Of a stretch of 28,556 nt of DNA, positions 16,550-26,483 are shown piece by piece. This DNA is from a virus. How positions within the stretch are numbered: position 1 is the first letter of the stretch; each line of letters starts with the position of its first letter. The position numbers and the translations under genes are program-made. The notes below the pieces were generated by a model that had not been told where the DNA came from, did not search any database, and saw nothing but the letters and a program-made list of their open reading frames with translations. Where the stretch lies: the IMG/VR virus record IMGVR_UViG_3300025759_000506, positions 1 to 28,556 of that record; one strand, 5' to 3'.

Positions 16550-16567
16550 AGTAGTTGATTTAATTTG

Positions 16568-16641
16568 TACACCCGCAGGGACTCGAACCCCGAACCTGCG
16601 CATTAGAAGTGCGCTGCTCTATCCCGTTGAGCTACAGGTGC
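16568..16641 (-). tRNA. tRNA-Arg (anticodon UCU)
   Basis: The minus strand folds as a complete cloverleaf. The acceptor is GCACCTG/CGGGTGT with one G-U at the first pair. The D stem is GCTC/GAGC and the anticodon stem GCGCA/TGCGC with loop CTTCTAA (anticodon TCT). The T stem is CGGGG/CCCTG with loop TTCGAGT, and the discriminator is A. CCA is not encoded; the genome continues CAA. It would read AGA and AGG. It sits 6 nt after the 57-aa gene and 18 nt before the zinc gene, inside the late transcript, so it must be excised by host RNases P and Z or E-like enzymes. Confidence 0.96.
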
Positions 16642-21990: not shown

Positions 21991-22470
21991 TTAGAGGCCT
22001 TTGCCAAAGATAGGTTCGTAGTAAACTTTTCCGTCATCGTCTCGGCAAGCCTTGAGACACCTTCCACGATTAAGACCATCGCGCACATAGCTAACGTGGA
22101 CCCAATCAGGATTGTCTTGATCACCAAACTCCCAAATGAGTTGATCAAACGTAAGGTTGTTGAGAATGTATTGGAAGATCTCACCGTTTGTACAACCTCC
22201 GAATACGTCTGCGTCGAGATCAAGAGCTCTGCCCTGTACATGCTGACTGCGCTTCGACCCACCGATCGCAACATTGAGCTCCTCCGAACGATAGCCGCTC
22301 GACACATATATAGCAGTTCCGAAAGCGTTGCGCAGAGGTTGAAAAATATCCTCTGCAACGGCTCGTAGATTTTCGATGGTCCAGTCATCTGGTGTGTTGT
22401 CAATTCCCAGGCGCACCGCCGTTCGGCTTTTGGTGACTTCCCTTAGAGATAAATTTTTTGACAGATTCAT
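21991..22470 (-). CDS. M15-family peptidase, probable endolysin (159 aa)
   Basis: This zinc peptidase cleaves peptidoglycan stem peptides. The signature SSGYRSEELN (58-67) precedes SQHVQGRALDLD (75-86), the SxHxxGxAxD motif supplying H77 and D84. WVHVSY (123-128) supplies the third ligand H125, with E114 a candidate catalytic acid. There is no signal peptide, so release would need a holin, but no convincing holin is adjacent. Length matches single-domain Peptidase_M15_3 lysins. It stands directly upstream of the receptor-binding gene, so it could also be a virion-associated lysin used at entry. Confidence 0.9.
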   Translation of the reverse strand: MNLSKNLSLREVTKSRTAVRLGIDNTPDDWTIENLRAVAEDIFQPLRNAFGTAIYVSSGYRSEELNVAIGGSKRSQHVQGRALDLDADVFGGCTNGEIFQYILNNLTFDQLIWEFGDQDNPDWVHVSYVRDGLNRGRCLKACRDDDGKVYYEPIFGKGL

Positions 22471-22546
22471 TGTTTAGTCGTCTTTTTTCGTTCGCGACTG
22501 CAGTGTTTTGGTTCTTTCTTTTCGAGTTGAAGTAAAACTTCTTCAT
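22400..22546 (-). CDS. Possible small Lys/Asn-rich protein overlapping the lysin start (48 aa)
   Basis: An ATG at 22546 opens a 48-codon frame ending at 22400 inside the lysin gene. The product begins MKKFYFNSKRKNQNTAVANE and stays basic and Asn-rich. It would fill most of the lysin's upstream gap. AAGAGG lies immediately before the ATG, too close for normal ribosome binding. It may be a short leader peptide or simply a chance frame. Confidence 0.25.
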   Translation of the reverse strand: MKKFYFNSKRKNQNTAVANEKRRLNNESVKKFISKGSHQKPNGGAPGN

Positions 22547-22621
22547 CCTCTTAACGAATTTTCACGCTCCAAAATTTGGACGGTATTGAAAGTTTTCCAT
22601 ATACTGAGATCAGCGATCAGC

Positions 22622-22629
22622 CAAAGTTA
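22622..22629 (-). promoter_or_regulatory. Possible -7 promoter box for the lysin transcript
   Basis: The minus strand reads TAACTTTG, matching TAnnTTTG, about 150 nt upstream of the lysin ATG in the divergent gap. No TTG lies at the usual distance upstream, so support is weak. Confidence 0.3.
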
Positions 22630-22655
22630 CGAAATCTAATTTAATACCTATACCC

Positions 22656-22832
22656 ATGAACAAGTTTCAATTCACCCTCGCTCTTGCAGCCATCGTCGCC
22701 GTCGGATCTGTCTTCATCGACACCGAAGCACACGTAGCACGTCGTGGTCAGGTCTCCCTCAACGGGGCACAGATCGAATCCGACATCGCCTTCCTCCGCC
22801 ACATGGCGTCTCCACTCCCTGGGCAGGAGTAA
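22656..22832 (+). CDS. Small secreted or periplasmic peptide (58 aa)
   Basis: The product opens with a textbook signal-like segment, MNKFQFTLALAAIVAVGSVF, a short basic start and a ~15-residue hydrophobic core, then IDTEAHVARRGQVSLNGAQIESDIAFLRHMASPLPGQE. It is on the plus strand, opposite to the surrounding late genes, and its stop is followed by a bidirectional terminator. It could be a superinfection-exclusion or lysis-accessory peptide; the N-terminal segment could also stay as a membrane anchor. No family is recognised. The opposite-strand frame here is a shadow. Confidence 0.6.
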   Translation: MNKFQFTLALAAIVAVGSVFIDTEAHVARRGQVSLNGAQIESDIAFLRHMASPLPGQE

Positions 22833-22850
22833 TCCAAAGTACATGAAAAG

Positions 22851-22876
22851 AAAAAGGGGCTCGCGCCCCTTTTTTT
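22851..22876. terminator. Bidirectional terminator between convergent genes
   Basis: A run of A, then GGGGC-TCGC-GCCCC, then a run of T (22851-22876) gives a stem with flanking U run on either strand. It ends both the plus-strand 58-aa gene and the minus-strand 336-aa gene, and overlaps the stop codon of the latter (22875-22877). Confidence 0.85.
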
Positions 22877-23885
22877 ATGATCTAGATCTCATGATCTGTA
22901 GTGCCTTCTCGTAGGCCTTCTCCCTCGTCATCATCTGGCGTGGTGATCTGCGCACTTGATTCTTGAAGATGTAGTCTGCGATCTCCTCGGGTTCCATCTG
23001 ACGGTCCTCGAACTGGCGAGTCTTGGGGTTGCGGACCTTGATGTTTGTCGGCACCTGACCTGTACGCAAGTATGGGGCCGTGATGAATCCAGTAAAGTCA
23101 TCCTGCATCTTGCCTGGCATGTCCTGCATACCACCCTGGAGTTCTCTATCCGCACCGACTTTCAGAAGTCGTGCGGATCTAGGCGCAATAGGATCGAGGT
23201 CCCCAGGTCTAGCTGCAGGTTCGTCTGCAGGTTCGGGTTCTGGCATGGTGGGCACATCACCCACTGGCATGTATACGTCGGTGGATGCGGTACCGAAGGC
23301 TGACTGTCTGTCGGCTCTGGACTGCTGGAGATCGTTGATGTCTCTAAAGTCTCTCACGTCAGCATCGGGTGCAGTGTTGAGGAGGAAGTCGGCCACGGGT
23401 GGATCCTCTCCCTCTGGAACGGCCATCCCGTCTTCCGCGTACTTCATTCGGTACTTAGGCACTGCCATGCCGTGCTTGGCCTGCAAGAGCCCAGGCAATC
23501 CAAAAAGGGCTGCCATAGGGTTACCGCCTGGCATAAAGTTGCTAGCCATGCCAGCAACACCTCCGACCTTCTGAAGCAAGGGGTTGTTGCTGTTCTGTGC
23601 CATGCCTCCCAAAAATTTAGCACCTTGTGCGATTCCGCTGCCTGGAGTGGCGTAGGCCTTGGCCACATCCTTGATGCCACCGACGAGACCCTTACCCTGC
23701 TTGAAGGCATTGACTCCAGCCATGATTGCACCGCCCAAACCGTACTCTACCTTACCGCCCTCTCCCTGAGACTTCTTGTTCTTTTTGAGCCTCCCCTTCA
23801 GGACGTCGGCGTAGGTGACCTTTCCGTCTCCTGTCAAATCTGGGAAGGACTTACCTCCCTTCTTGTATCTTTTAATCTTTGGCAT
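22875..23885 (-). CDS. Virion protein with dockerin/EF-hand calcium loop (336 aa)
   Basis: A basic N-terminus (MPKIKRYKKGGKSF) leads into DLTGDGKVTYAD at residues 16-27, a full 12-residue EF-hand/dockerin loop with acidic positions D16, D20 and D27. A Gly/Ala/Met-rich central region (about 50-135, GLGGAIMAGVNAFKQGKGLVGG) looks amphipathic and membrane-active. A Pro/Glu-rich disordered middle and a basic helical end (QMMTREKAYEKALQIMRSRS) follow. I recall proteins with 'PDL..DGKVTYADVLKGR' in tail or internal-core regions of marine phages. An ejected internal protein is a reasonable guess. It is coupled by TAATG to the 158-aa protein. Confidence 0.75.
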   Translation of the reverse strand: MPKIKRYKKGGKSFPDLTGDGKVTYADVLKGRLKKNKKSQGEGGKVEYGLGGAIMAGVNAFKQGKGLVGGIKDVAKAYATPGSGIAQGAKFLGGMAQNSNNPLLQKVGGVAGMASNFMPGGNPMAALFGLPGLLQAKHGMAVPKYRMKYAEDGMAVPEGEDPPVADFLLNTAPDADVRDFRDINDLQQSRADRQSAFGTASTDVYMPVGDVPTMPEPEPADEPAARPGDLDPIAPRSARLLKVGADRELQGGMQDMPGKMQDDFTGFITAPYLRTGQVPTNIKVRNPKTRQFEDRQMEPEEIADYIFKNQVRRSPRQMMTREKAYEKALQIMRSRS

Positions 23886-25627: not shown

Positions 25628-25635
25628 CAAATATA
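25628..25635 (-). promoter_or_regulatory. TATATTTG promoter box, 4 nt before ATG
   Basis: The minus strand reads TATATTTG then CTGC then ATG (25623). It starts the late module with a leaderless-type geometry, the same as at 1197 and 9909. The nearest upstream TTG is 26 nt away, longer than the usual spacing. Confidence 0.5.
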
Positions 25636-25795: not shown

Positions 25796-26225
25796 GATTG
25801 AATTGTTACTTTAATCAATAGCCTTAACCGCTTCCTAACGAGACTGTTACGTGCTCTCCCGCTTTGACGAGCGGATCGCACGCCTCGAAAAATGGGTGAG
25901 AAATACGTAGGGTGGGGATTATATGTATCTGACGAGAGGCCAATCCGACACAGAAAACGAGTTTTCTGACCCCCCTCCCTTCGACACAATCAAAGATTGT
26001 GGGGTAACTTTTGACGCTAACCATCTCACCGACAGGTCTTTAGACCTGTAGCTTAAACCTTTGGTTTAACAGAGAACTGGCTAAAAGGGTACGCAGCTTG
26101 TTCCTAGGCATAATGCGTTGACAATCACCCCCTTTCCCTTTCCAACTTGGAGTATTACTCCAACCTGACTAGACACTACCAACCTCGATGCTGTTGGTAA
26201 TTGCAATAACCATGGGTTATTGAGA

Positions 26226-26432
26226 ATGTTTTGTCAACATCAAAATCCATTGGCGGAGCGGTGCGCTGCGTCAGTAGCACACATAGCCAACTTGTTGGCT
26301 TCCTGTCACTACCGAGGATTCGGTCAAACTATTACTTTACTTCGTAAAGGAATAAGATGGTGGCAGAGTAGAGATGTAGTAAGAAAGAGAAGAGGAGTCT
26401 TACGACTTCTCTTCCTTACTACTATCTCCTAG
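26226..26432 (+). CDS. Possible short basic protein inside the structured region (68 aa)
   Basis: From ATG 26226 the frame encodes MFCQHQNPLAERCAASVAHI, then a hydrophobic ANLLASCH stretch and a very basic segment (RDVVRKRRGVLR), ending at TAG 26432. It lies across hairpins at 26285-26300, 26311-26324 and 26335-26349 and the large hairpin at 26371-26428. Since downstream genuine genes are also hairpin-dense, structure alone does not exclude coding. The amino-acid makeup is not persuasive. Confidence 0.25.
   Translation: MFCQHQNPLAERCAASVAHIANLLASCHYRGFGQTITLLRKGIRWWQSRDVVRKRRGVLRLLFLTTIS
26371..26428 (+). promoter_or_regulatory. Long leader hairpin before the first early gene
   Basis: The outer stem GAGAT/ATCTC pairs 26371-26375 with 26424-26428. 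The middle GTAGTAAG/CTTACTAC pairs 26376-26383 with 26415-26422. A 5-nt bulge (26384-26388) precedes an 11-bp inner stem (26389-26399 with 26404-26414, one G-U) and a TTAC loop. It is directly followed by a 9-bp stem at 26428-26455 and then the TCAAACTTCAA leader. There is no U run, so it is not an ordinary terminator. Confidence 0.7.
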
Positions 26433-26455
26433 AGCCTTGAGAAGTCGGTTCTAGG

Positions 26456-26466
26456 TCAAACTTCAA
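26456..26466 (+). repeat. Leader motif TCAAACTTCAA, copy 1
   Basis: The 11-nt motif follows a long hairpin and precedes the ATG at 26478 by 11 nt. Identical copies lie at 27339-27349, 27573-27583, 28513-28523 (all after hairpins, before ATGs) and 28268-28278 (codons 2-5 of a gene). Confidence 0.8.
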
Positions 26467-26483
26467 ATTCATTTTCAATGAAT
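26467..26483 (+). promoter_or_regulatory. Start-codon hairpin of the 167-aa gene
   Basis: ATTCATT-TTC-AATGAAT is a perfect 7-bp stem with a 3-nt loop, and the ATG (26478-26480) lies in its 3' arm. The same two arms with loop GAA occur at the next gene (26981-26997). Translation would need the hairpin to be opened. Confidence 0.65.

Follow-up and report, generated by a model that had tools for sequence, protein, structure and literature searches.

An exchangeable gene for a small envelope-type protein within a proposed moron-like cassette beside the lysin of putative Bacteroidota phages

Phage morons, the cargo of lysogenic conversion, are autonomous genes located in late operons but equipped with a promoter and a terminator of their own, with lom and bor of phage lambda as examples. 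Small phage holins and periplasmic lysis regulators of the T4 RI type are small proteins with one hydrophobic N-terminal segment and are encoded next to the lysin. A further group of small envelope proteins acts in superinfection exclusion. In the passages of PMC9586334 that deal with them, the lipoproteins Llp of phage T5 and Cor are presented as very small exclusion proteins with an adjoining host-interaction gene, and exclusion is modeled from the periplasmic side. For phage Fc02, an exclusion protein of 7.9 kDa is among the subjects of PMC9936078. Here, we analyze a small gene that shares features with each of these systems. It is located in a virus record of 28,556 bases, which is referred to as the window.

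Terminase and portal protein of the window match PHROGs 6681 and 6547 in a search of PHROGs. The closest terminase of an annotated phage is encoded by the environmental Caudoviricetes record MW202828 (48% identity), followed by Flavobacterium elemo phages (41%). Since the terminase matches among annotated phages mostly come from Flavobacterium (68) and Cellulophaga (15) phages (83 of 102 records), the host of the window phage probably belongs to the Bacteroidota. The late genes are organized on the minus strand. They include an M15-type endolysin (21991-22470, minus strand; Peptidase_M15_3, E=5.3e-18; PHROG endolysin, E=3.2e-32) and, as the last gene of the upstream late run, a gene of 336 codons (22875-23885, minus strand) known from the ORF list and a homologue search. 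Between both lies a gene for a peptide of 58 amino acids (22656-22832, plus strand; ATG start, TAA stop), divergent from the lysin and convergent with the 336-aa gene. A preliminary description of this DNA had placed a plus-strand gene against the late direction and beside the lysin, and the ORF, the M15 matches and the minus-strand late genes bear this out. Two other small frames are found here. A lysine/arginine-rich ORF of 48 amino acids (22400-22546, minus strand) overlaps the lysin start and has no significant match in a PHROG search; comparable ORFs of ~43-49 aa are located ahead of the lysin in the relatives L004, L011, L013, L017 and L177 (L numbers designate the related contigs). An ORF of 67 aa (22641-22844) runs antisense to the 58-aa gene.

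The 58-aa product (MNKFQFTLALAAIVAVGSVFIDTEAHVARRGQVSLNGAQIESDIAFLRHMASPLPGQE) has a hydrophobic stretch directly after MNK. A search with this single sequence retrieved no relative from viral contigs and one non-significant match from phage records (E 0.8, 33% identity); relatives were reached via the neighbor genes and subsequently by stepwise profiles. Contig L002, found through the 336-aa neighbor, encodes a 43% identical peptide at the same place, and profile searches of uncultured phage contigs resulted in a family (family P) of 18 distinct full-length peptides of 53-59 aa, including that of the window. In profile searches of whole records, P was present in 2 of 36, 5 of 40 and 5 of 39 records, many of which are fragments and several of which were already known. 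Some contigs share an allele (L174, L190 and L199; L177, L200, L210 and L214; L017 and L086), and the counts given here ignore relatedness. Five residues (F20, D22, R30, Q39 and P53) are invariant across 17 aligned peptides. The dN/dS ratio amounts to 0.08-0.39 in 11 of 13 hand-chosen pairs, one of these finite values resting on a nearly saturated dS, while dS is saturated in the other two. The frame, whose presence in related phages the preliminary description had named as a check, is thus conserved in 17 other distinct full-length peptides, and the substitution pattern indicates a real, conserved gene with a protein under purifying selection.

No homologue of known function was found for family P in any library searched. 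There is no significant match in Pfam, PHROGs, NCBIfam, PADLOC, PDB sequences or 50,697 phage records, and a profile scan covering 84,980 bacterial and archaeal species with a single genome per species, which depends on conserved short peptides, yielded 76 pattern-matching stretches and no confirmed relative. The AlphaFold2 model of the 58-aa peptide (pLDDT 75, pTM 0.35) comprises helices at residues 3-19, 24-30 and 37-50, and a fold search with this model is uninformative (best E 4.9). Similar to Llp of phage T5, P is by its sequence a very small phage envelope protein. Llp, as far as it is covered in the source cited above, has a lipidated cysteine and adjoins a receptor-binding protein gene, whereas P lacks a conserved cysteine and adjoins the lysin. 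Indeed, the alignment of 17 P peptides contains no conserved cysteine that could serve as the +1 residue of a lipobox (signal peptidase II), and no sequence or profile match between P and Llp or Cor is significant or above the curated cut-off in Pfam, PHROGs, NCBIfam, PADLOC and PDB sequences.

The gene is flanked by signals on both sides. Downstream, a symmetric intrinsic terminator (22851-22874, both strands) is positioned between the 58-aa gene and the convergent late gene, with the stem AAAAAGGGGC-TCGC-GCCCCTTTTT and T runs on both strands. The corresponding stretch of 50 nt folds with -17.2 kcal/mol (z=-3.6; 1 of 200 shuffles as good), and the z-scores of the two terminators that were folded are -3.6 and -3.4. 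A terminator follows the cargo gene in 25 of 27 loci, the remaining two ending with the available sequence. A simple consensus scan, by which 4 terminator-like sites are found in 6 kb against 5.3 expected, is uninformative alone. The bidirectional terminator that the preliminary description assigned to this gene is confirmed by the symmetric stem, the T runs on both sides and the fold, and it would stop transcription of the upstream late run as well as of the cargo gene.

Upstream, the gene is preceded by a conserved intergenic block (22548-22655), recognized by its alignment identity relative to the ORF, which comprises two putative promoters. The ~107 bp before the start codon share 65-78% identity between the window and 12 relatives, compared to 43-57% for the ORF. 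Block conservation equals or exceeds ORF conservation in 74 of 78 pairs among 13 members; the four exceptions differ by 1-5 points and three of them involve L177. In an alignment of 16 blocks, six of which came from the block scan described below, 33 columns are invariant. A structured RNA was considered and rejected: there is no Rfam match, and the fold z-scores of three block stretches are 0.5, 0.5 and 0.0. In the absence of both an RNA fold signal and an Rfam match, the constraint more likely acts on the DNA. Within the window, a search for repeats of the block gave a single match to its core, with ~1 expected by chance at that tolerance.

On the plus strand, the putative cargo promoter (22576-22605) is a conserved pair consisting of TTG (22576-22578), a spacer of 21 nt and TATACT (22600-22605). 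The pair TTG-N20/21-TA (then TA...T) is present in 27 of 27 loci scanned. This candidate does not belong to the TATATTTG class of boxes, which occurs where late genes begin. On the minus strand, the conserved box TAACTTTG (22622-22629) is a putative -7 box of the lysin-side promoter and is of the TAnnTTTG type, which PMC9723704, in the part that concerns it, gives as the flavobacterial sigma-A -7 box at -12 to -5. Either TAACTTTG or TAAATTTG is found in all 27 loci, with variation only at the free TAnnTTTG position. As AAANTTAC was a fixed part of the scan pattern, the minus box is partly built in for loci known from the scan only; the ten blocks that had been reached via the peptide before the scan constitute an independent set, and all ten carry both elements. 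In the window alone, promoter-like sites by a simple consensus scan are at chance level (4 versus 3.7 expected) and TAnnTTTG occurs 16 times versus 9.8 expected, so that the promoter evidence appears to lie in conservation across loci, not in the match to a consensus. Both elements are thus putative promoters. If they act as such, transcription in the window would start at ~22612 on the plus strand and at ~22617 on the minus strand, the two units facing each other with an overlap, and the minus-strand box would restart transcription toward the lysin side after the terminator.

Two further features of the window concern its transcription units. TATATTTG boxes occur on its minus strand at 25635, 14272, 9921, 1209, 8973 and 3343, all six on the late strand, with an ATG 4-5 nt after the box in four of the six. 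Across 22 related loci, the first ATG follows at 4-5 nt in 29 of 65 such boxes, whereas six control octamers show this spacing at 1 of their 50 sites, which suggests leaderless late mRNAs from sigma-A-like boxes. Moreover, ~530 bp between opposed transcription units (25940-26470) contain densely spaced hairpins, folding as single-strand DNA with -90 kcal/mol (z=-7.1), and represent a candidate origin or regulatory region.

The conserved block was used as a probe for the content of the site in other phages. Scans of viral contigs gave 18 and 35 stretches, of which seven of the 35, obtained with the loose pattern (L201, L203, L204, L205, L211, L212 and L213), were dropped as chance matches without lysin or block context. 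The block occurs with a nearby lysin homologue in 28 contigs besides the window; in L175 and L180 one ORF intervenes, and the lysin was partly judged from another locus of the same contig. In 19 of these 28 contigs the block is followed by P (two of them ending with the available sequence). In seven others it is followed by unrelated signal-peptide proteins of 115-175 aa, i.e., 158 aa in L184 and L189, 175 aa in L197, 151 and 133 aa in L202, 117 aa in L206, 149 aa in L209 and 115 aa in L216. The remaining two contigs (L207 and L208) carry a P stump of 18 aa (L207:483-539, L208:7375-7431) ahead of an exported-type protein of 149 aa, and these stumps are best read as P erosion in progress. Furthermore, a second signal-peptide protein is located behind P in L215 and in three contigs sharing the L177 allele. 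The preliminary description had called the gene isolated, which applies within the window and does not extend to other contigs, where as many as two cargo genes occupy the slot. A cargo gene and terminator also occur in L004 and L013-L016, but with a diverged block. A signal-peptide family of ~150 aa with Gln at +1 is found in the slot of several contigs (L209:3107-3556, L177:1041-1490, L208:6908-7357, L215:768-1226, L202:6372-6827).

In relatives that lack the slot (L005/6, L011, L017, L018-20, L021 and others), ORFs in the late direction reach the lysin within ~85 nt or overlap it, and therefore the slot appears to be an insertion in the late gene run with exchangeable content. P is absent by profile from eight records of 51-62 kb to which a close lysin or terminase had led (60.5, 59.8, 54.6, 51.6, 60.4, 62.3, 53.7 and 55.5 kb), and likewise from a ninth record of 52.4 kb with a more distant lysin. 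Because of these eight records, P would be an accessory gene rather than a universal lysis gene of the group, although diverged copies may be missed. In a sample collected by the lysin only (at least 65% lysin identity; the distant hits L026-L082 are outside the count), a cargo gene is present in 2 of 14 distinct contexts and P in the slot in none of the 14. Given that contigs were gathered by lysin, terminase, profile and block, these frequencies are no estimate for nature.

The larger cargo proteins differ from P in their export signals. According to the part of PMC5837995 dealing with the Bacteroidetes Q-rule, substrates of signal peptidase I typically carry a glutamine at +1. Such a Gln+1 is present in 13 of 14 larger cargos, some of them near-identical, after a small residue or a cysteine (ASAQ, SFGQ, AMCQ and similar). 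These alleles look exported, and the L013 cargo has a membrane-anchored appearance. None of the 18 P peptides has a Q-rule cleavage site, and a simple (-3,-1) rule gives any site just past the hydrophobic stretch in 13 of the 18. Secretion of the peptide, as read in the preliminary description, and its cleavage are consequently not supported, although P may still be cleaved. As P never fits the Q-rule, anchoring in the membrane is more probable than secretion, and the window allele would most likely span the inner membrane once, with ~35 residues protruding from it. For a larger cargo of the ~150-aa family, the model is mostly beta (pLDDT 65, pTM 0.64). Fold searches with it gave no significant match, neither in PDB (best E 0.045, a lipase, then Ig/TCR, C2, pilin and other beta domains) nor in a viral library (best E 0.021; tail fiber, Ig, FN3), and the L209 cargo has no match among phage records.

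Taken with the flanking signals, these data support the earlier view of a gene with its own signals and an envelope-targeted product, as judged from sequence, and this envelope reading is strengthened by the other signal-peptide proteins that occupy the same slot in related phages. The 58-aa gene thereby appears as one of several interchangeable envelope-protein cargos of a self-contained cassette, for which no description was found in the open-licence PMC literature with the terms used. From lysin to late run, the proposed plan would consist of the lysin reading outward, two opposed promoters, a cargo gene in the opposite orientation, the terminator and the converging late genes. The cassette resembles morons in its promoter-like block, its terminator, its insertion in a late run, its accessory and swapped content and its envelope products (by sequence). 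Two moron criteria, i.e., an inserted gene that close relatives lack at this site and an own terminator, both apply. Unlike morons, the cargo points against the late genes and the block also bears a lysin-side box, and database searches with the tested cargo families gave no match. In this scheme a moron-like cassette would have been inserted in the late run of a Bacteroidota phage with the 58-aa gene as its cargo, and the product of this gene would go to the envelope.

P has a second home. In five contigs (L017, L086, L088/L011, L140 and L167) it lies in the late direction behind tRNA-Arg(TCT), shortly before the terminase genes; in L088 one small ORF separates the tRNA and P, and in four of four contigs where the next ORF was read, its start and the end of P share a few bases. 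Neither block scan listed any of these five contigs. As they place P behind the tRNA and outside the block lists, the P gene appears to move between sites. In these phages P may be expressed late. The window itself has a tRNA-Arg(TCT) at 16567-16641 (minus strand), directly before the terminase genes, a place it also takes in many relatives.

With regard to function, we favor the reading that P changes the envelope of the infected cell and thereby excludes competing phages (superinfection exclusion), to which we give a little under an even chance. It is preferred since an accessory, exchangeable and envelope-directed cargo with its own signals resembles phage genes for exclusion or host conversion. 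Its main weakness is the second home, which fits late expression better than early exclusion. The same late orientation of five homologues would suit a lysis accessory, i.e., a membrane protein that resembles a holin or an antiholin or sets the time of lysis and cooperates with the M15 lysin, the other cargos doing the same job. Indeed, similar to small holins and T4 RI, P is small, has a single hydrophobic N-terminal segment (in the model one N-terminal helix, accompanied by a C-terminal helix) and is located beside the lysin, a position retained in 28 block contigs and the window, and the lysin is the only lysis gene recognized among the scanned subset of window proteins. Yet, P diverges from the lysin and is transcribed away from it, has no family match, is replaced by unrelated signal-peptide proteins of 115-175 aa (seven contigs) or eroded to 18 aa (two contigs), and is absent from the eight records of 51-62 kb, where diverged copies were possibly missed. 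Altogether, we regard a role in lysis as rather unlikely, while it stays a serious contender.

A variable, accessory and envelope-targeted cargo, with a larger allele modeled as mostly beta and giving weak, mixed matches, could also modulate the host envelope in another way, e.g., by acting on gliding, protein export or envelope stress and raising burst size; such regulators show no similarity to the cargos in the libraries searched, and we hold this explanation to be improbable. The remaining two readings have very little probability. In one, the peptide is a mere short leader and the DNA block is the selected element, so that the ORF itself matters little. In nearly all pairs the identity of the block equals or exceeds that of the ORF, and the block is kept in L207 and L208 while P is eroded, but the low dN/dS, the five invariant residues and the conservation of the peptide in five contigs unlisted by either block scan speak against it. 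In the other, equally remote, P is a minor virion or assembly protein made late, in line with the five contigs in which a homologue lies just ahead of the terminase genes; this is at odds with the 20 contigs, counting the window, in which P and the lysin have opposite orientations, and with the replacement of P by signal-peptide proteins elsewhere.

The two putative promoters may be interlocked and add a regulatory layer, each having its -7 box within the first bases transcribed from the other. Cargo and lysin transcription would then be mutually exclusive, and the cassette would operate as a switch between early cargo and late lysis that carries interchangeable, exported or membrane-bound proteins changing the envelope of Bacteroidota; we put this forward as a tentative and somewhat doubtful possibility. 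An arrangement of opposed promoters that interrupts a late run and restarts the lysin would be a compact and testable regulatory design. The shared block locates the slot without knowledge of the cargo, which makes it possible to list and test candidate proteins for exclusion or lysis control that act against Bacteroidota. The small ORF would serve as a marker of a conserved slot from which the envelope-acting proteins of an uncultured phage group may be read off.
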